This document shows positions 46,625 to 63,704 of a DNA stretch of 64,000 bases, piece after piece. Source of the DNA: Flavobacteriales bacterium (GTDB lineage Bacteria; Bacteroidota; Bacteroidia; CAIKAF01). Each line of letters opens with the position of its first letter. Within the stretch, counting starts at the first letter, position 1. Both the position numbers and the translations under genes were made by a program. Location: positions 248,001-312,000 of the forward strand of contig JANWKT010000017.1 in NCBI GenBank assembly GCA_025451235.1, read 5' to 3'. The notes beneath the pieces are model-generated. The model was not told the DNA's origin and ran no database searches. It saw only the letters and a program-made list of their open reading frames with translations.

Positions 46625-47449
46625 TTATTTATTTGCTAATTCAGTACTGAGATTCCACAATTTCTCCTGCATGGCTGCATCATGCGAATAAGCCGATGAT
46701 TTTTTCTCCTTTTGTTTAAAGTCGAAGAACTTTCCGCTAATACCATTGTATTTTTCCGAGGTAGCCAGCTCAGTCAGCGCATGGGCGGCTTTATCTGGCT
46801 TGGTACTCATCATATTTACAATGAGCTTCAACGGCCCTTTCATTTCTTTTACCAGATCTGATTTTACCAGACCCGGATGAAACGTATTCGTGGTTACTTT
46901 GGTGCCTTCGAGTTTTTTGGCCAGCATATAATTGGTCATCAGGTTCATCATTTTGGAGCCCCCGAATGAATACATAGAAGAATACTTTTTCTCTCCTTGC
47001 AAATCATCAAAGTTCAGTTTTGTGGTGGATGGAGCTGCTACCGTTACAATTCTTGACGGCTCGCTTTTTTTAAGCAGGTCGAGCAATTCATTGGTTAATA
47101 CAAATGGCCCCATATGATTAGTGGCAAACATCATTTCCAGTCCATCTTTCGACAGTTCGCGGTTTGCACGAAAAATAGCTGAAATATTCACCAAGGCATC
47201 CAGATGATTATATTTTTGTTTGAATTCGTTGGCCACCTTTTTAATACTGGCAATATGCGAAAGGTCAGCCACCATGATGTCAATATCCTTATTGCCGCTT
47301 GCTTTAATGAGTTCAGCTTGCAATGCTTCCAATTTTTGCTGGTTCCTTGCCAGCAATACTAAATGGTGTTTGCCTTTGGCAAGTTCCTGGGCTGTGGCTC
47401 CACCAATAGCTCCTGTAACTCCAGTTATAAGAATTGTTTTTTTGCTCAT
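46625..47449 (-). CDS. SDR-family protein, retinol-dehydrogenase-like, with altered active site
   Basis: The 274-residue protein has a nucleotide-binding start ILITGVTGAIGGATAQELA and family landmarks (MVADLSHIASI, TNHMGPFVLTNELLDLL, TNTFHPGLVKSDL). The usual NNAG motif reads NISA (88-91). The catalytic Ser region reads VTVAAP (about 135-140). The YxxxK motif reads F162-G-G-S-K166, so Tyr is replaced by Phe while Lys is kept; Tyr160 is two positions off register. It may be catalytically inactive or use another residue. It sits between a membrane protein gene (7 bases) and the Npd-like gene. Confidence 0.8.
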   Translation of the reverse strand: MSKKTILITGVTGAIGGATAQELAKGKHHLVLLARNQQKLEALQAELIKASGNKDIDIMVADLSHIASIKKVANEFKQKYNHLDALVNISAIFRANRELSKDGLEMMFATNHMGPFVLTNELLDLLKKSEPSRIVTVAAPSTTKLNFDDLQGEKKYSSMYSFGGSKMMNLMTNYMLAKKLEGTKVTTNTFHPGLVKSDLVKEMKGPLKLIVNMMSTKPDKAAHALTELATSEKYNGISGKFFDFKQKEKKSSAYSHDAAMQEKLWNLSTELANK

Positions 47450-49811: not shown

Positions 49812-51236
49812 TTATTTGGAATTTTCAATAAGCATTTTCTTCTTTTCCATTTCGCACGGACCTGTTTCAAAGCTTAAATGATCAAGCTTTTGAATGGCTG
49901 ACCAGCCTTTATGCACATTTACAAAATGAGTAAATCCATGCTTTTTAAGCATGCTTGCAGCTATCATGCTTCTATAGCCTCCGGCACAATGTATAATATA
50001 AGAGGTGTTTTTATCCAATTCATCCAGGTTTTCCTCCAGGATTTGAAGGTGCAAGGTCTTAGCCCCTTTAATATGACCTGTTTCAAACTCTCCAGGCTTA
50101 CGTACATCCAATACTTTCCATCCTTTGTCCATATAGGTCCGGATCTCTTCGGGCTCAATAGAGGTAATGGCTGCGATTTCCTGGTTGGCCTGGATCCAGG
50201 TCGAGAAACCGCCTTGTAAATAACCAGTTATATTTTCGATACCCACGCGGGCTAAACGGGTGATCACTTCATTTTCTTTTCCAGGATCCGTAATTAAAAC
50301 CAGTGGCTTTTTATAGTCTAGCACGGTAGCTGCCCAAATGGCGAACTGACCATTGGTCCCAATATTGATCGAATTAGGAATATGGGCTTTTTCAAATTCA
50401 TCTGCGATCCTGGTATCCAATATAACCGCACCTGATTGGATCTGCGTTTTAAAATCTTCTAACGACAACGACCTATTTGTCTTCACAAATACATCTTCCA
50501 GGTTATCATAACCATTTTTGTTGATGCTTGCAGCAATAGCAAAATAAGATGGGGCAGGTACAATCCCTTCTGTGATGGTTTTCACAAAAACCTCCTTGGT
50601 CATGGGTTGTAGCGCATAATTCCCCTTCTTTTGCTCCCCAAGCTGGGTAAAGGTCTCTTTGCCGATATTTTTACCACAGGCGGAGCCGGGTCCATGGCCT
50701 GGATAAACCATTACATCGTCCTCTAGGGGCATGATCTTTTGCTGAATGGAATCATAGAGCATAGCGGCCAGATCCTGAGAAGTAATATTTTGAGCAATAG
50801 CCAGATCGGGCCTTCCTACATCCCCTATAAACAGTGTATCTCCGGTAAAGATGGCATGATTTTTGCCTTTCTCGTCGACTAGTAAAAACGTGGTGGATTC
50901 TGGGGTATGCCCAGGAGTATGTAAGACCACAAAATGAATATTACCGATCTTTATATGTTCACCATCTGCAGCTGAGTGAATAGGAAAAGAAGTTCTGGCA
51001 TCAGGCCCAAATAAAATGATTGCTCCTGTTTTTTTAGCCAACTCTAAATGTCCTGAAATAAAATCAGCGTGGAAGTGAGTTTCAAATATATATTTGATGG
51101 TTGAACCTCGTTCTTTGGCTAATTCAATGTATTGATCAGGTTCTCTTATTGGGTCAATGATGACCGCTTCGGCATGATCATCGATATAGTAAGAGGCCTC
51201 TGAGAGGCATTGAGTATATATCTGCTTAATATACAT
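49812..51236 (-). CDS. Metallo-beta-lactamase-fold / double rhodanese protein (persulfide dioxygenase-like)
   Basis: The 474-residue protein has an N-terminal metallo-hydrolase domain with THFHADFISGHLE (about 53-65), HTPGHTPE and TGDTLFIGDVGRPDL (about 130-146), and YPGHGPGSACG (about 178), as in ETHE1/CstB-type persulfide dioxygenases. Two rhodanese domains follow, about 260-350 and 365-465. Only the second has an active-site Cys (IIHCAGGYRSM); the first has Asp in place of the nucleophile (LITDPGK). It probably oxidises low-molecular-weight persulfides in sulfide detoxification. A -7 box TACCTTTG (minus) lies at 51267-51274. Confidence 0.88.
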   Translation of the reverse strand: MYIKQIYTQCLSEASYYIDDHAEAVIIDPIREPDQYIELAKERGSTIKYIFETHFHADFISGHLELAKKTGAIILFGPDARTSFPIHSAADGEHIKIGNIHFVVLHTPGHTPESTTFLLVDEKGKNHAIFTGDTLFIGDVGRPDLAIAQNITSQDLAAMLYDSIQQKIMPLEDDVMVYPGHGPGSACGKNIGKETFTQLGEQKKGNYALQPMTKEVFVKTITEGIVPAPSYFAIAASINKNGYDNLEDVFVKTNRSLSLEDFKTQIQSGAVILDTRIADEFEKAHIPNSINIGTNGQFAIWAATVLDYKKPLVLITDPGKENEVITRLARVGIENITGYLQGGFSTWIQANQEIAAITSIEPEEIRTYMDKGWKVLDVRKPGEFETGHIKGAKTLHLQILEENLDELDKNTSYIIHCAGGYRSMIAASMLKKHGFTHFVNVHKGWSAIQKLDHLSFETGPCEMEKKKMLIENSK

Positions 51237-51410: not shown

Positions 51411-51441
51411 TTGAAATTCATGGATTTTTAATATATTTTTG
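51411..51441 (+). promoter_or_regulatory. Promoter of the polyketide synthase gene
   Basis: TTG at 51411-51413 and TATTTTTG at 51434-51441 are 20 bases apart, matching the consensus. The leader is about 50 bases. It is a dedicated promoter, separate from the divergent MBL gene. Confidence 0.7.
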
Positions 51442-51499: not shown

Positions 51500-54400
51500 A
51501 TGGAAAGTATGGAAAACCTAACAAAACTTAACTATGAGCCTATAGCCGTTGTGGGTATGGGGTTAAGATTTCCCGGTGGGGCTACAAACCCGGAAGAGTT
51601 TTGGAGACTGTTGGCAGAGGGTACAGATTGTATTATTGACGTACCTAAGGATAGATGGGATTGGAGAAGATTCTATGATCCCGAGACAGACAGACCAGGC
51701 AAGACGCACCAGCCACAAATGGGATTTTTACAAAAACTACGTGTTGAAGAATTCGATCCTTTATTTTTTGGAATGTCACCCCGCGAGGCGGCCATATTGG
51801 ACCCTCAGCAACGACTTTTATTGGAGTCAACGTGGGAGGCATTTGAAGATGCTGGATTTCAGGAAGCCAAATTAAGAGGCTCCAGAACCGGGGTATTTAT
51901 TGGAGGATTCTGCTTAGATAATAAATTACAACAATTAGGAGCTCTTAACCGCGACCTTATTGGACAAAATACTGCAACATCATCTACCATGGTGATGTTA
52001 TCCAACCGGATATCCTATTCATTTGATCTTCGTGGCCCTTCATTAACCATTGATACGGCCTGTTCTTCGGCTTTAGTAGCAGCCCATTATGCATGTTTGA
52101 GCATCTGGACAGGAGAATCGGATATGGCGATTGCTGGTGGTGTAAACGTGATGCTTCGTCCAGAATATCCTATTGCGATGAGCAAAGGTCAATTCCTTTC
52201 AAAACATGCCCGTTGTAAAGCATTTGATGAAGATGCCGGAGGTTATGTTCGTGGGGAAGGTGCTGGAGTGGTAATTTTCAAGCCGCTTTCAAAAGCAATG
52301 GCTGATGGAGATTATATTTATGCGGTGGTGAGAGGTACTGGATCCAACCAGGATGGTGCCACCAACGGTATCACGGTTCCTAATCCTGAAGCTCAGGAAG
52401 ATTTGATCCGTGAAGTTTATGCAAAAGCTGGCGTTGAAATAAAAGATATCAAATACATCGAAGCTCACGGTACTGGAACGAAGGTGGGTGATCCATTGGA
52501 ATTAACCGCATTGGACAATGTATTAAAAACAGCACATGATAAGAACAACAAGGTTTTTGTTGGTTCTGTAAAAACAAATATTGGTCACCTGGAAGCAGCA
52601 GCCGGTATTGCAGGGATCATCAAAACTTCCTTGGTATTAAACAAGCGACATGTGCCACCGCATGTACACTTCAAAAAAGCGAATCCAAAAATCGATTTCG
52701 AAAATATATCTTTAAAAATTCCTTTAAAACTGGAGAAATTTGGTGACGAGGAAAAATTAATGGCCTCCATCAACTCCTTCGGATATGGGGGAACCAATGG
52801 CCACATGGTCATGGAACAACCTCCTCTTGAATATTTGAGCAGGTTTTCAAAAAATGGTCAGTATAATAACAGAGAGCAATTCCTTTTCCCCGTTTCGGCT
52901 AAAAGTGATGTTGCACTAGCCGGTATTTGCAAAAAATATGCAGACTTTTTACGAAACGATGATATTTCTATTGTTGACTTTGCATATACGCTAGCCTACC
53001 GAAGGTCACATCACCTGAATAGAATTACGATCGTTGCCGCCACTAAGGAAGAATTGATCGAGAAATTGGAGGCCTATGCAAATGGAGAGTTGTTAACTGC
53101 AGTTACCTTTAACCAGGTACAGGAAAATAATAAATTGGTTTTTGTTTATACAGGAATGGGACCACAATGGTGGGCTATGGGAAGAGAAATGTATGCAAAA
53201 GAACCGATCTTTAAGAAAGTGATCGACCAGTGTGAGGAGATCTTCAAAAAGATTTCCGGGTGGTCGTTATTAGAAGAATTGATGAAGCCAGAAGCTGAAT
53301 CAAGAATGAATGAAACAGCTATTGCACAACCGGGAAACTTCTTTATTCAAGCAGCCCTCACAGAGGTTTGGAAAGAATGGGGAATTCAACCAGATGCCGT
53401 AGTAGGTCACTCGGTAGGTGAAGTTCCTGCTGCTTATGTATCAGGCGCCTTAACCTTGGAAGAAGGGGTTTTGGTAAGCTACCATAGAAGTCGTTGCCAG
53501 CAAACAACCGCCGGGCAAGGAACGATGTTGGCAATTGGAATCGGAGAAGAAGCTGCTGAGAAAATAATCCAGGAAAATGGGTTACAAGCAGAAATTTCGG
53601 TTGCTGCCATTAACTCATTCAACGGAGTTACCATCGCTGGAACAAAATCAGCCTTAACAAAAATTGGTGAAATACTTACACCTCAAAATATTTTCAATAA
53701 AATGCTTACCGTTGAAGTGGCTTACCATAGCTACCAAATGGAGCCATTGAAAGATGAATTATTGAAATCATTGTCTTCAGTAAAACCAAAAACCGCCACC
53801 ATTCCATTATACTCAACCGTTACCGGAACCATTATGAATGGTAACGAGTTCAACAATGAATATTGGTGGCAAAATGTTCGCCAGCCTGTACGTTTTGCAA
53901 AAGCGGCGCAGACAGTGGTGAACGATGGTTATACAGTATTCCTTGAAGTGGGACCACATCCTGTGTTGAGAACAAATATCAACGAATGCTTAACTGCTGC
54001 CGATGTAAAAGGCTCCATTGTGCCTTCACTCAGAAGAGGAGACCCTGAAGTGGTTACCTTGATGAACTCGTTAGGAACGATGCATACCTTAGGCTTTGAG
54101 ATCAATTGGAAACCATTTACCGATAAAGGTAAATTCCAGAAGATCCCAACCTATGCCTGGGATAAAGATGTTTACTGGCAAGAGTCAGAAAGATCCGTGG
54201 AGGAAAAGCATGGCGTTCCAGGTCATATTTTCATGAATGAAAATGCACGCCAACCATTTCCTGCATGGGAAGTGGAGATCAACCAGTTCTTATTACCATG
54301 GTTGCATGATCATCAGATCGAGAATATGATCGTTGTTCCGGGTGCGGCTTATGTGGAAGCAGGGTTAGCTATTCACGAAAAAGAATTTGGAAACACGGCT

Positions 54401-57400
54401 TGTACTTTACAAAACTTAGAATTTAATCAGGTATTGGTGGTGGATGAGAAACGTATTCAAATGTTTCATACCACTTACAATCCAGATTCGAAAAAATATA
54501 CAGTATTCAGCAGATACAGGGAGGATAATTCTCCATGGACCCTGCATGCTTCAGGAAGATTACTGAAAGACACTATTTCAAGGGATATTCCTTCGATCAA
54601 TGTAAAAGACATTAAGAAACGTTGCACTGTTGAAGCGGATGCTCAAGAATTCTATACTTCGTTGGATGCACGTGGTCTCATGTATGGTCCTTGGTTCCAG
54701 GGAGTAAAACAAATCTTTAAGGGAGACAATGAGGTATTGGTGAAGTTGGAAGGGAACGATGCCTTGATCCGCAATGAGGATAACTATTTATTGCATCCTA
54801 CATTATTGGATTCAGGGTTTCAATCCATGGTGGCCATCGTAAGTGATGGAAGCACCAATCCTAATCCTTTTGTTCCCGTAAACATTAAACAGATCATGTT
54901 CTATACCAGTCCTGGTAATGAATGCTGGAGCTATTGCAAAATTACAGAGAGGACAGATAGTTCCATTACCGGCGATTTGATCCTGTTCGATGAAAGCGGA
55001 GAAGTGTTAGTTGCTTTAGAAGGGATTACCTGCCAAGCTATTAACAGTAGCAAAGGAGATGCGGCCGGAGCGATGGATAACTGGTTCTACGAATATCAAT
55101 GGAATGAAGGAGAAGCGTTGAAGGAAACAGATTCTCCAAATTCGGCAGGAAAATATTTGGTTTTTGGTGAATATGATAATTTGGATTTATTGCAAGGACT
55201 CATTGAAAGAGGAATTGATTTTACCATCGTTAGCAAAGGAGAAGGATATTCAGATGATGAAGGATTGCTTACGGTGAATCCAAAGAACGAAGAAGATTAT
55301 CACCGACTATTTGCCGAAGAGTCATATAGCCATATCATGTATACCTGGAGTACCGAGAAGAAGGGCCGTGGTACAGATATTTCTTATGACGATATACTGG
55401 ATCAAACAATGCCGGTGGTTTATATCGCCAAGGCGTTGGCAAAAAACAGACCGAATGATAAAGTAAGGTTGATCGTTATTACTTGTGGATCGCAGGTGGT
55501 ATTGGGCGAAGACAAAGGTGCCTCCTTAGATACCTCAGCCTTTTGGGGATTGAACCATTTGATTGGAAATGAAAACCCCAATGTTACTTGTAAAACCATC
55601 GATTTATTCCAGGATAAGGATGACGGTGAATTTGAACTATTAGCGAGGGAGATCGTGTCGGGGAATAAAGATGAAGATATCGCTATACGCCATAATAAGC
55701 GTTTCATAAGGATTTTAAATACCGTTTCTTTAGGCAGTGCCAGCGGTGAGAAGAAAAAAGTTTCAACAGAAACACCTGTATCTCTTGAGATAGGACAGGT
55801 TGGTCGTTTGGATAGTTTATTTTACGATGAATTTGAGCGCAAAAAAGAACTGGCACCTGATGAGGTCGAGATCCGTAACTATGCGGCTTGTTTGAATTTG
55901 AAGGATGGTCTGAAAGTAATTGGCCAGCTTTCTACCAAAGCCACCAAAGGAAGCTATTATGAAAGCAATATAGGTCACGAAGCCGCCGGTGTTATCACAC
56001 GGGTTGGTTCGAAGGTAAAAGACTTCAAGGTAGGTGAGGAGATCATATTGGCTGCACCAGAGGGTTGTTTAAGATCTTATGTGGTTTCGGTTCCTACTTA
56101 TTATTTACGCAAACCAAAGAACATCAGCTTCGAAGATTCGTTGATGGTGGTTCCTTATATGACCGTATTGTATAGTTTACGGAACAGAGCTCAACTACAG
56201 AAAGGTGAAAAGATCCTTATTCACAATGGTACAGGTGGAGTAGGTTTGGCAGCCATTCAATATGCCCAGTATGTAGGAGCCGAGATTTATACAACTGCTG
56301 GAAGTGAGGAGAAACGTAATTACCTGAAAAAATTAGGAATTAAGAATGTATATGATTCCCGTTCATTGGATTTCGTAAAACAGATCAAGGAAGATACCAA
56401 TGGTTATGGTGTGGATGTGGTGATCAACGCGATTGCCGGAGAAGCCTTATACCAGTCATTTGAATTGTTAGCTTCTTATGGACGATTTGTTGAAATCGGT
56501 AAACGTGATATCACAGAAAATACCGGATTGCCTATGCAGCAATTCAACAATAATATTTCCTTCTTAGGGATCGATGTGGATAGATTGATGATGGAGAGAA
56601 CTGAAGTAGTTCAACAGATCCATAGGGATATTGAGAAATTCTACGAACAAGGAGTGTTTAAGGCGGTCAATACGCATTTATTCGATGCCAAGGATGCAGT
56701 AGAAGCGTTCAATTTTATGCTGCAGTCGAAACATATGGGTAAAGTGGTGATCAATTTTAAAGACCAGCAAGTAGAAGTTCCTGTAAAAACCGAAAAGAAA
56801 GAAATTGATACCAATGCCACCTATTTAATTACAGGAGGTACCGGTGGTTTCGGTTTACAAATTGCGCAATGGTTATCATCAAAAGGGGTGAAGCAATTGG
56901 TTTTGGCAAGTCGTAGTGGAGCTAAAACAGATGAAGCCAAAGACGCTATTAAATTGATCGAAGCAAATGGGACCAAAGTATATGCTGAGCCGGTAGATAT
57001 CACCAATGATAAAGCCGTGGCTGAAGTGGTAGCAAAGATCAAAAAAGATATGCCACCTTTAAAGGGTATTATTCATGGTGCGGTTGTATTAGATGACGGA
57101 TTTATTGTGGATATGAGCCGCGACCGTTTTGTTACCTCTTATAACGCCAAAGTGGGTGGAGTATTGAATGTTCATAAACATACCAAAGATATTCCTCTTG
57201 ACTTCTTTGTTTCTTTCTCTTCTATTTCAGCTTTGATTGGAAATGCGGGACAGGCGAATTATGTTTCCGCCAACACATTCTTAGATCAGTTTGCACATTA
57301 TAGAAAGGCCAATGGAATGCAGGCGACTACGATTAATCTGGGAGTTTTGGGTGAGGTTGGAGTAGCAGCACGTGATGCCAATGTTACAGCGATATTGGAA

Positions 57401-57955
57401 AGTGGTGGTATTTTTGGATTCACAACTGCAGAGGCGCTGGAAGGACTTGGAGTGGTCATTGCGAATACCCCGGTTCAGGTGGGAATGTTTAATGTTGATT
57501 GGGGACGTTGGTCGTCTATCAACTCAAAATCTGCTCAAAGCAGCCGATTTAAAGCTTTAGCTGATGCCAAAGGCAGTGGTAATGGAGTTGGAGGCAAACT
57601 AGCTGAAATATGCGCTGAATTGTCTGTGTTGGCCGAAACGGACCGACTTGCTTATATGGAATCTGCAACCGCTGAGGAAGTAGCCAGGGTACTGAAATTG
57701 TCGGTAGAAAAGATCGATAAGACCCGAGGCATTAATTTTATGGGTGTTGACTCGTTGATAGCTGTAGAATTAGGCAGGGCTTTTCAAACCAGATTCGGAT
57801 TAGAAGTAAGTACTATGGAATTATTAAGCGGTCCTAATGTGACCCAATTGGCCAATGGCTTGCTTGATAAAGCGATTGCAAGCGGAATGTTAAGCGATCT
57901 TGACTCCATGAGTGAAGAAGAGCTGGATGCGCTGCTGGCTGAAGTGAAAGCATAA
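51500..57955 (+). CDS. Stand-alone highly reducing type I polyketide synthase (KS-AT-DH-ER-KR-ACP)
   Basis: The 2151-residue protein is a single full module. KS (about 12-440): Cys188 in DTACSSAL, His323 and His363. AT (about 545-850): Ser638 in GHSVGE; the specificity motif is VAYH (740-743), neither HAFH (malonyl) nor YASH (methylmalonyl). DH (about 920-1190): His938 with Pro947, where the usual Gly of HxxxGxxxxP is Asn942; Asp1104 and Gln1108. About 1200-1420 is probably a structural pseudo-KR; no methyltransferase is seen. ER (about 1430-1745): GTGGVG at 1577. KR (about 1770-1950): GGTGGFG at 1779-1785, Ser1908, Tyr1921, and an LDD motif typical of B-type KRs. ACP: Ser2085 in GVDSL. There is no loading domain and no thioesterase, so release must be in trans. 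It ends SEEELDALLAEVKA. Product unknown, likely a fully or mostly reduced acyl chain made iteratively. Confidence 0.93.
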   Translation: MESMENLTKLNYEPIAVVGMGLRFPGGATNPEEFWRLLAEGTDCIIDVPKDRWDWRRFYDPETDRPGKTHQPQMGFLQKLRVEEFDPLFFGMSPREAAILDPQQRLLLESTWEAFEDAGFQEAKLRGSRTGVFIGGFCLDNKLQQLGALNRDLIGQNTATSSTMVMLSNRISYSFDLRGPSLTIDTACSSALVAAHYACLSIWTGESDMAIAGGVNVMLRPEYPIAMSKGQFLSKHARCKAFDEDAGGYVRGEGAGVVIFKPLSKAMADGDYIYAVVRGTGSNQDGATNGITVPNPEAQEDLIREVYAKAGVEIKDIKYIEAHGTGTKVGDPLELTALDNVLKTAHDKNNKVFVGSVKTNIGHLEAAAGIAGIIKTSLVLNKRHVPPHVHFKKANPKIDFENISLKIPLKLEKFGDEEKLMASINSFGYGGTNGHMVMEQPPLEYLSRFSKNGQYNNREQFLFPVSAKSDVALAGICKKYADFLRNDDISIVDFAYTLAYRRSHHLNRITIVAATKEELIEKLEAYANGELLTAVTFNQVQENNKLVFVYTGMGPQWWAMGREMYAKEPIFKKVIDQCEEIFKKISGWSLLEELMKPEAESRMNETAIAQPGNFFIQAALTEVWKEWGIQPDAVVGHSVGEVPAAYVSGALTLEEGVLVSYHRSRCQQTTAGQGTMLAIGIGEEAAEKIIQENGLQAEISVAAINSFNGVTIAGTKSALTKIGEILTPQNIFNKMLTVEVAYHSYQMEPLKDELLKSLSSVKPKTATIPLYSTVTGTIMNGNEFNNEYWWQNVRQPVRFAKAAQTVVNDGYTVFLEVGPHPVLRTNINECLTAADVKGSIVPSLRRGDPEVVTLMNSLGTMHTLGFEINWKPFTDKGKFQKIPTYAWDKDVYWQESERSVEEKHGVPGHIFMNENARQPFPAWEVEINQFLLPWLHDHQIENMIVVPGAAYVEAGLAIHEKEFGNTACTLQNLEFNQVLVVDEKRIQMFHTTYNPDSKKYTVFSRYREDNSPWTLHASGRLLKDTISRDIPSINVKDIKKRCTVEADAQEFYTSLDARGLMYGPWFQGVKQIFKGDNEVLVKLEGNDALIRNEDNYLLHPTLLDSGFQSMVAIVSDGSTNPNPFVPVNIKQIMFYTSPGNECWSYCKITERTDSSITGDLILFDESGEVLVALEGITCQAINSSKGDAAGAMDNWFYEYQWNEGEALKETDSPNSAGKYLVFGEYDNLDLLQGLIERGIDFTIVSKGEGYSDDEGLLTVNPKNEEDYHRLFAEESYSHIMYTWSTEKKGRGTDISYDDILDQTMPVVYIAKALAKNRPNDKVRLIVITCGSQVVLGEDKGASLDTSAFWGLNHLIGNENPNVTCKTIDLFQDKDDGEFELLAREIVSGNKDEDIAIRHNKRFIRILNTVSLGSASGEKKKVSTETPVSLEIGQVGRLDSLFYDEFERKKELAPDEVEIRNYAACLNLKDGLKVIGQLSTKATKGSYYESNIGHEAAGVITRVGSKVKDFKVGEEIILAAPEGCLRSYVVSVPTYYLRKPKNISFEDSLMVVPYMTVLYSLRNRAQLQKGEKILIHNGTGGVGLAAIQYAQYVGAEIYTTAGSEEKRNYLKKLGIKNVYDSRSLDFVKQIKEDTNGYGVDVVINAIAGEALYQSFELLASYGRFVEIGKRDITENTGLPMQQFNNNISFLGIDVDRLMMERTEVVQQIHRDIEKFYEQGVFKAVNTHLFDAKDAVEAFNFMLQSKHMGKVVINFKDQQVEVPVKTEKKEIDTNATYLITGGTGGFGLQIAQWLSSKGVKQLVLASRSGAKTDEAKDAIKLIEANGTKVYAEPVDITNDKAVAEVVAKIKKDMPPLKGIIHGAVVLDDGFIVDMSRDRFVTSYNAKVGGVLNVHKHTKDIPLDFFVSFSSISALIGNAGQANYVSANTFLDQFAHYRKANGMQATTINLGVLGEVGVAARDANVTAILESGGIFGFTTAEALEGLGVVIANTPVQVGMFNVDWGRWSSINSKSAQSSRFKALADAKGSGNGVGGKLAEICAELSVLAETDRLAYMESATAEEVARVLKLSVEKIDKTRGINFMGVDSLIAVELGRAFQTRFGLEVSTMELLSGPNVTQLANGLLDKAIASGMLSDLDSMSEEELDALLAEVKA

Positions 57956-57977: not shown

Positions 57978-58010
57978 AAAAAGCCGTTACAAAAAGTAGC
58001 GGCTTTTTTC
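57978..58010 (+). terminator. Intrinsic terminator after the PKS gene
   Basis: AAAAAGCCGTTAC and GTAGCGGCTTTTT arms pair with one G-U around AAAAA, followed by T's. Confidence 0.85.
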
Positions 58011-62702: not shown

Positions 62703-63704
62703 ATGATTCTTGTTACCGGAGGTAGTGGTTTTTTGGGTGCACATTTGCTTGTACAACTTTCGGCGTTCGATAAAAAAATTATTGCATCCAAAAGAGTTAC
62801 CACAAATCTAGCATATGTAAAAAAAGTATTTGAATTGGAAGGTGCAGCAGATCGTTACTCTTTGGTGGAATGGAAGAACATCGATTTTTTTGACACGTAT
62901 GATATTGAAGATGCTTTAACAGGTATTGACCAGATCTATCATTGTGCTTCGGAGGTTTCATTTAATCCGAAACACCATCGACGAATGATTGAAAACAATG
63001 TAACCATAACTGGGAATCTTGCCAATGCTGCCTTGTTTTGTGGAGTAAAAAAATTCATGCATGTAAGCAGTATAGCTGCGCTGGGAAGGTCGGCCCAGGA
63101 AGAGATCATTGATGAGACCCGGATTTGGAAGACAGATCCTGTGAACAGCCAGTATGGACTTAGCAAATACAAAAGCGAAATGGAAGTATGGCGTGCCCAC
63201 GAAGAGGGCTTACCTGTGATCATTGTAAACCCCGCGGTTATTATGGGTTATTGCCCATGGAATGAAGGGACAGGAAAAATGTTTGAACGGGTGGATAGTG
63301 GAATGAAATATTTTACCGATGGGTATACAGGATGGGTGGATGTAAAGGATGTAGCGGCTTGTATGATCCAACTCATGCAAAAAGAAATCAATGGAGAACG
63401 TTACATCATAAGTAGTGAAACCATGGGATTTAAGAACGTATTTGAAATGATTGCGGAGGAGTTAAACAAACCCAAAGCCCAAAAGCAAGCCAATCTTTCC
63501 TTAGCGAAATGGCTGGTGGTGGCTGAAAAATGGAGATGTAAAATAACCGGCAAAACACCTTTGATCACAAAGGAAACTTTGCGCAATGCAACCCTTCAAT
63601 GCAACTATGTAAACGATAAAATAAAAAAGGAAATAGGTTTTGTTTTTAAACCTATTGTCACTACCGTTCAGGAAACGGCTCGTTTATACAAGGCCGAGCA
63701 TTAA
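62703..63704 (+). CDS. NAD-dependent epimerase/dehydratase-family (extended SDR) protein
   Basis: The 333-residue protein has the extended SDR fold: VTGGSGFLGAHLL (about 4-16), QIYHCASEVSFNPK (about 79), VSSIAALG (about 121) and YGLSKYKSE (about 152), where Tyr and Lys form the catalytic pair. The sequence resembles 3-beta-HSD and dihydroflavonol-reductase-like members rather than sugar epimerases, so the substrate may be a ketone or aldehyde of a lipid or terpenoid. It overlaps the convergent partial gene at the edge by four bases. Confidence 0.82.
   Translation: MILVTGGSGFLGAHLLVQLSAFDKKIIASKRVTTNLAYVKKVFELEGAADRYSLVEWKNIDFFDTYDIEDALTGIDQIYHCASEVSFNPKHHRRMIENNVTITGNLANAALFCGVKKFMHVSSIAALGRSAQEEIIDETRIWKTDPVNSQYGLSKYKSEMEVWRAHEEGLPVIIVNPAVIMGYCPWNEGTGKMFERVDSGMKYFTDGYTGWVDVKDVAACMIQLMQKEINGERYIISSETMGFKNVFEMIAEELNKPKAQKQANLSLAKWLVVAEKWRCKITGKTPLITKETLRNATLQCNYVNDKIKKEIGFVFKPIVTTVQETARLYKAEH

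Follow-up and report, generated by a model that had tools for sequence, protein, structure and literature searches.

In a stretch of 64,000 nucleotides from a Flavobacteriales bacterium (the window; G000:C17:248001-312000 in an assembly of 46 contigs), the gene at 51500-57955 on the forward strand encodes a single-module polyketide synthase (PKS) that looks alone. The first-pass annotation described it as an orphan without partner genes. That description fails at the level of the genome: an alpha-oxoamine synthase (AOS) and an extended short-chain dehydrogenase/reductase (SDR) are encoded elsewhere, and their distribution is identical to that of the PKS. We consider it probable that the PKS works with these two enzymes to give a sphingolipid-type amino-lipid, forming a dispersed PKS-based sphingoid pathway. 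The reading draws on the intact domains of the PKS, the restriction of all three genes to one set of genomes, the clade to which the AOS belongs, the adjacency of the AOS and SDR genes in the window's genome (G000) and the conserved protein termini.

Shared distribution and phylogeny of the three genes

The search for partners compared the neighbourhoods of 78 homologous PKS loci all-against-all. The recurrent neighbour was a protein of ~445 aa, encoded by the next gene on the same strand at 20 of the 78 loci in several phyla (small overlapping open reading frames, ORFs, were ignored in this count); at L073 it lies near the PKS on the opposite strand. The protein belongs to the AOS group of the serine palmitoyltransferase (SPT) superfamily (PF00155; Pfam, NCBIfam), and the BioF, SPT and KBL models all score under their cut-offs. 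Its nearest solved structures are serine palmitoyltransferases (8guh and 3a2b), and it retains the lysine motif for pyridoxal 5'-phosphate (PLP) and the stacking His. With a Planctomycetota AOS as the query, we found an orthologue of 53-58% identity in G001, G004, G005, G008, G009 and G010, while the PKS-less G002, G003, G006 and G007 gave paralogues only (36-38%); the remaining PKS carriers, G011 to G015, have an AOS 65-72% identical to that of G001. The AOS of the window's genome is seen as its C-terminal 131 aa (81% identity; C39:10868-11263), open to the end of contig C39.

PKS and AOS are not a two-gene cluster in the window's family (f1) and occupy separate loci: in G013, where both are on one contig, the PKS (1,049,002) and the AOS (282,408-283,787) are ~766 kb apart. 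In genera g1 and g4, the gene immediately 3' of the AOS encodes the extended SDR. In G000, the SDR (C39:9815-10810) and the AOS are on one strand with 57 bp between them, and in G013 the SDR (274,926) is ~7 kb from the AOS. At L020, from a marine metagenome-assembled genome, a PKS, an AOS and a related SDR stand in a row. In PKS-less members of the family, identity to the extended SDR is at most 31%. Among solved structures, the extended SDR is closest to 3wj7, described as a "putative oxidoreductase"; an assignment as CerR was considered and set aside. At L187:10376-11155 and L193:10472-11251, both of genus g5, the extended SDR is followed by a classical one that distantly resembles (30%) the SDR from the PKS-AOS cluster of Pseudomonas.

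We computed the co-occurrence over an identical set of 395 genomes of the class for all three genes, defining a full-length PKS orthologue by an identity of at least 49% plus extent and an AOS by E<=1e-85. The PKS was found in 13 genomes, twelve of f1 and G147 of family f10; another 11 genomes above the PKS search threshold have different PKSs (33-46%). The AOS passed its threshold in 12 genomes, all of them PKS carriers, the 13th carrier being G000 with its fragment, and the extended SDR was found in exactly the 13 carriers. Among the 395 genomes, no AOS or extended SDR orthologue was found outside the carriers, and the hypergeometric P value of the AOS-PKS co-occurrence, uncorrected for kinship, is ~5e-22. 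Within f1, close PKS orthologues (65-91% identity) are present in 12 of 16 genomes, among them every sampled genome of g1, g4 and g5 and none of g2, g3 and g6; given this conservation, the ORF is not a chance one. More remote homologues (33-49%) are spread over Planctomycetota, Pseudomonadota, Nitrospirota, Verrucomicrobiota, Acidobacteriota and Actinomycetota, among other groups. A 76% identical PKS comes from L010 (JACSSC010000058.1), labelled Candidatus Competibacteraceae, a record name that looks wrong. In two Chloroflexota relatives, a gene of the acetoacetate decarboxylase family is directly 3' of the PKS (L031:16633-17430 and L038:16634-17431).

In a tree of 59 AOS sequences inferred with IQ-TREE, the PKS-adjacent AOSs, except that of L050, and the AOSs split from their PKS form one clade (support 100/99). 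Nested in this PKS-linked clade, the split AOSs make up a single clade (98/92), and they stand apart from the glycine C-acetyltransferase and SPT-like paralogues. The PKS-linked clade also holds the AOS of the Pseudomonas plasmid NZ_CP016850, where a PKS-AOS pair has a lipoteichoic acid (LTA) synthase and an SDR nearby. In the KS-AT tree, the PKSs of the family share a clade (SH-like approximate likelihood ratio test 99) with the AOS-adjacent PKSs of L050, L016, L043, L023 and L026, PKSs of other phyla among them. The AOS of L050 groups outside the main clade, weakly supported (64/18), and L050 was therefore not taken as the model case; this Chitinophagales locus (L050:4736-19334) has the order PKS, divergent AOS, P450, amine oxidases and SDR, with a hybrid two-component regulator upstream. 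The first-pass annotation had set against its own proposal a KS from a modular assembly-line clade with partners elsewhere: the partners do lie elsewhere, but the clade is one of mono-modular PKSs with an AOS.

Other homologous loci, from Nitrosomonas, Methylobacter and Nitrospira (L029, L036, L047, L051, L052, L061 and L062), encode a PKS, an AOS, an MMPL transporter, a LolA-like protein and an uncharacterised protein, and several of them a phosphopantetheinyl transferase (PPTase). Their PKSs have lost the ER motif, and their chains are therefore likely to be less reduced.

The PKS gene and its surroundings

The PKS gene is one intact ORF with an ATG start and no internal stops, encoding 2151 aa. 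By Pfam, the protein is a reducing type I PKS of a single module with the architecture KS-AT-DH-psiKR-ER-KR-ACP. The features of the gene and its flanks are as follows.

51411-51441, forward strand: candidate Bacteroidota-type promoter, read from sequence; TTG at 51411-51413, 20-nt spacer, TATTTTTG at 51434-51441
51536-52816, forward strand: ketosynthase (KS), aa 13-439, with the Pfam match at aa 13-391; C-H-H intact; Pfam and motifs
53138-54097, forward strand: acyltransferase (AT), aa 547-866; GHSVGE; Pfam and motifs
54260-55048, forward strand: dehydratase (DH), aa 921-1183; His and Asp intact; Pfam and motifs
55157-55615, forward strand: structural pseudo-KR (psiKR), aa 1220-1372; PF21394
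55856-56752, forward strand: enoylreductase (ER), aa 1453-1751; NADPH site GGVGLA intact
56816-57349, forward strand: ketoreductase (KR), aa 1773-1950; LDD (B-type), S-Y-N intact
57674-57856, forward strand: acyl carrier protein (ACP), aa 2059-2119; DSL serine
57908-57952, forward strand: C-terminal acidic tail MSEEELDALLAEVKA, candidate docking element for the AOS
57978-58009, forward strand: predicted intrinsic terminator hairpin, AAAAGCCG...CGGCTTTTTT, read from sequence

All domains have intact catalytic motifs, including TACSS, EAHGTGT and NIGHLEAAAG in the KS, LHDHQIENMIVVPG and LLDSGFQ in the DH, TGGTGGFG...LDD...S-Y-N in the KR and GVDSL in the ACP. The first-pass annotation was right about a complete stand-alone module with intact KS, AT, KR, ER and ACP; its list left out the DH, which is present with intact His and Asp and, judged by these residues, looks active too. 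The sole odd letter of the DH is an N at the Gly of HxxxGxxxxP; the solved mycocerosic acid synthase (MAS) likewise has N, and relatives within the family carry Gly, Ser or Ala at the position. The specificity site of the AT reads VAYHS, with Tyr where the solved MAS has VASHS, which suggests malonyl-CoA as the extender. Within the assembly, the PKS holds the only assembly-line KS, the remaining KS-like matches being short ORFs of 393-425 aa, the size of FabF-type proteins. At G000:C25:4570-8224, the genes for a BioF-like AOS and a FabF-like KS share a strand and lie ~2 kb apart. The assembly encodes two proteins of the PPTase family (C1 and C24), either of which could activate the ACP.

With a candidate promoter of its own, as had been proposed, and a terminator hairpin 3' of the gene, the PKS is most likely transcribed as a single-gene (monocistronic) unit. 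A conserved TATATTTTTGCA block also precedes the PKS in other genera, and conservation of the promoter across genera is partial. The neighbours scanned at 46-64 kb of the window encode a metallo-beta-lactamase (MBL)-rhodanese protein, a SnoaL-like protein, an M23 peptidase, SDRs, a protein sorted by the type IX secretion system and a tyrosyl-tRNA synthetase. Within that range we found no thioesterase, PPTase or PKS partner, in agreement with the earlier description of the surroundings.

The MBL-rhodanese gene (49812-51236, reverse strand), encoding an MBL fold and two rhodanese domains, is divergent from the PKS and shares its upstream region, an arrangement common to g1, g4 and g5 (L021). We rejected it as an MBL-fold thioesterase, since it is common, occurring in 31 of 40 relatives, some of which lack the PKS. 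The HpnA-like epimerase at 62703-63704 was rejected as the co-inherited SDR (~24% identity), and the SDR at 46625-47449, weakly similar (25%) to that of the Pseudomonas cluster, is not the co-inherited one either.

A candidate pathway and its alternatives

We propose that, through repeated rounds on its own ACP, the PKS would elongate an acyl chain that ends up long and largely saturated. The PLP-dependent AOS, made from its distant locus, would dock to the PKS and join an amino acid in an external aldimine; attack on the acyl-ACP thioester and loss of CO2 would follow. Aldimine formation, thioester attack and CO2 loss are established AOS and PKS chemistry. Such offloading by decarboxylative condensation, most likely with L-serine, would yield a 3-keto long-chain amino base, whose 3-keto group the co-inherited extended SDR would then reduce. 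The iteration, the chain length, the use of serine, the ketone reduction, the docking and the final lipid are inferred. The suggestion that the chain is handed to another enzyme in trans thereby gains support, and the special fatty acid once foreseen as the product gives way to a likely sphingoid-type amino-lipid.

Docking could involve the ends of the two proteins. The PKSs of the family end in the tail LS[ED]E[EQ]LDA[LM]LAEVK (motif LSEEELDALL; 10 of 10 sampled), and the AOSs start with a helix EEK[RK]E.LK (motif EEKRELLKKLM), found in 11 of 11 of the family and in 0 of 25 KBL or SPT-like paralogues. Megasynthases are known to use short C-terminal motifs for docking onto N-terminal domains of the enzymes that follow (PMC9113145), and we infer that the PKS tail and the AOS helix may bind each other.

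Several observations weigh against this pathway. The window's own genome shows the AOS only as a C-terminal piece at a contig end, and the extended SDR is of a different class from the classical KDSR-like SDR SgaC of the Pseudomonas system discussed below. The tail motif is present in just 6 of 21 AOS-adjacent PKSs and, beyond the family, the helix motif in just 8 of 20 PKS-adjacent AOSs. The 13 carriers span two families only, which leaves few independent events behind the co-occurrence, and the distribution within f1 is uneven. Lastly, in the Acidobacteriota L017 and L027, whose PKSs belong to the same clade as that of the window, a fatty-acyl reductase (NAD_binding_4) is encoded by the next gene after the PKS (L017:16265-17533 and L027:16415-17719), and a search of both genomes found no AOS orthologue. 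Membership in the PKS clade alone hence does not fix the AOS as partner; the release partner appears to be exchangeable within the clade, and chain release in L017 and L027 is probably reductive instead.

The PKS might still be a true orphan, an iterative fatty acid synthase (FAS)-like enzyme for a special fatty acid, with hydrolysis or transfer to a general acyltransferase as the means of release and the AOS and SDR co-occurring only through common descent. No partner adjoins the gene, and some stand-alone relatives have no AOS orthologue (several Verrucomicrobiota loci and L015 among them), but we regard this explanation as unlikely given the exact three-gene distribution over the 395 genomes, the position of the family's AOS within the PKS-linked clade, the AOS-PKS linkage in distant phyla and the presence, elsewhere in the genome, of the dedicated partners that a true orphan would not have. 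Synthesis of methyl-branched acids from methylmalonyl-CoA by a mycocerosic- or phthioceranic-type synthase seems highly improbable. MAS is indeed the best solved match (E 6e-292) with an identical domain order, and Pks2 is the top NCBIfam match; against that, the Pks2 model (NF041183) scores 1257 bits where the cut-off is 2400, the AT lacks the methylmalonyl-type VASHS, and neither an acyltransferase nor an acyl-AMP ligase adjoins the PKS. A polyunsaturated fatty acid synthase of the PfaA kind was rejected, with TIGR02813 scoring 386 bits against a cut-off of 1010 and the protein having a single ACP.

If the PKS-AOS-SDR pathway is accepted, the AOS might take alanine, glycine or cysteate and make a deoxysphingoid or capnine/sulfonolipid-type base. 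Bacteroidota sulfonolipids are made by a related cysteate acyltransferase (PMC9304779), and the solved 28eh matches the AOS as well; it ranks, however, below the serine palmitoyltransferases, and SgaB, which is an enzyme of that kind, has a nearly exclusive preference for serine (PMC12134224). This variant is the less favoured one, though far from negligible.

A further step is to see the dispersed PKS-AOS-SDR set as a replacement of the canonical Bacteroidota SPT for membrane sphingolipids, with the PKS making a housekeeping structural lipid instead of a clustered secondary metabolite, and the conserved docking ends bringing together two large enzymes encoded hundreds of kilobases from each other. 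The family's AOS scores 303 against the model for that SPT (NF047600), whose curated cut-off is 640, and the canonical enzyme was below the cut-off in all 11 f1 genomes searched; PKS-AOS-SDR may accordingly be the only route to long-chain bases in these genomes. We offer the replacement tentatively, as an idea with somewhat less than even prospects.

Comparison with known systems

The closest known system is SgaAB(C) of Pseudomonas fluorescens MYb115, in which an iterative PKS and an AOS, with SgaC, make sphinganines; SgaB condenses acyl-CoA with L-serine in vitro, and both SgaA and SgaB are required for sphinganines in vivo (PMC12134224). Those clustered PKS-derived sphingolipids were reported in 2025 as the first example to the authors' knowledge (PMC12134224). 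The likeness consists of a mono-modular PKS, an AOS and an SDR-type reductase, and the AOS of the sga-like Pseudomonas plasmid is 47% identical to that of the window's family and in one clade with it. The systems differ in that PKS and AOS are unlinked here, that the reductase is an extended SDR whereas SgaC is a KDSR-like classical one, and that no LTA-synthase headgroup gene was seen beside the window's PKS. The PKS of the plasmid, taken as a stand-in for MYb115, is ~33-35% identical and has 2497 aa versus 2151 here.

The canonical bacterial pathway of Spt, bCerS and CerR (PMC11087976) likewise consists of condensation by an enzyme of the AOS superfamily and NAD(P)-dependent reduction of the long-chain base; unlike there and in the Bacteroidota SPT, the acyl chain here would come from a PKS and not from the general FAS pool. 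MAS and Pks2 share the single-module domain order and provide the nearest solved structure, but the AT site here is not methylmalonyl-type, the Pks2 cut-off was missed and the partner is an AOS. The fungal fumonisin and sphingofungin pathways (PMC7376913, PMC10936153), compared by description, also combine a reducing PKS, release by an AOS and KDSR-like reduction (per PMC12134224), but are clustered and make toxins. The swf PKS of sponge symbionts (PMC3908369), again compared by description, is a stand-alone mono-modular PKS/FAS with an unassigned product, its partners being a reductase-sulphotransferase and a radical SAM protein and not an AOS.

The survey of Sga distribution used cblaster and so considered co-located genes (PMC12134224); a dispersed pathway escapes such cluster-based searches because its PKS and AOS are unlinked. 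In our literature search, which took in only a minority of subscription journals, no paper describing a dispersed PKS-AOS version was found. If the pathway is true, PKS-made sphingoid lipids may exceed current counts, including in Bacteroidota without a canonical SPT. What looked like an orphan PKS becomes, through the analysis, part of a three-gene pathway open to testing, with candidate docking ends by which the chain could pass directly from PKS to AOS. Set beside the known systems, the proposed chemistry is of the Sga kind, and the differences are that the genes are dispersed, that the reductase is an extended SDR and that the hosts are Flavobacteriales.

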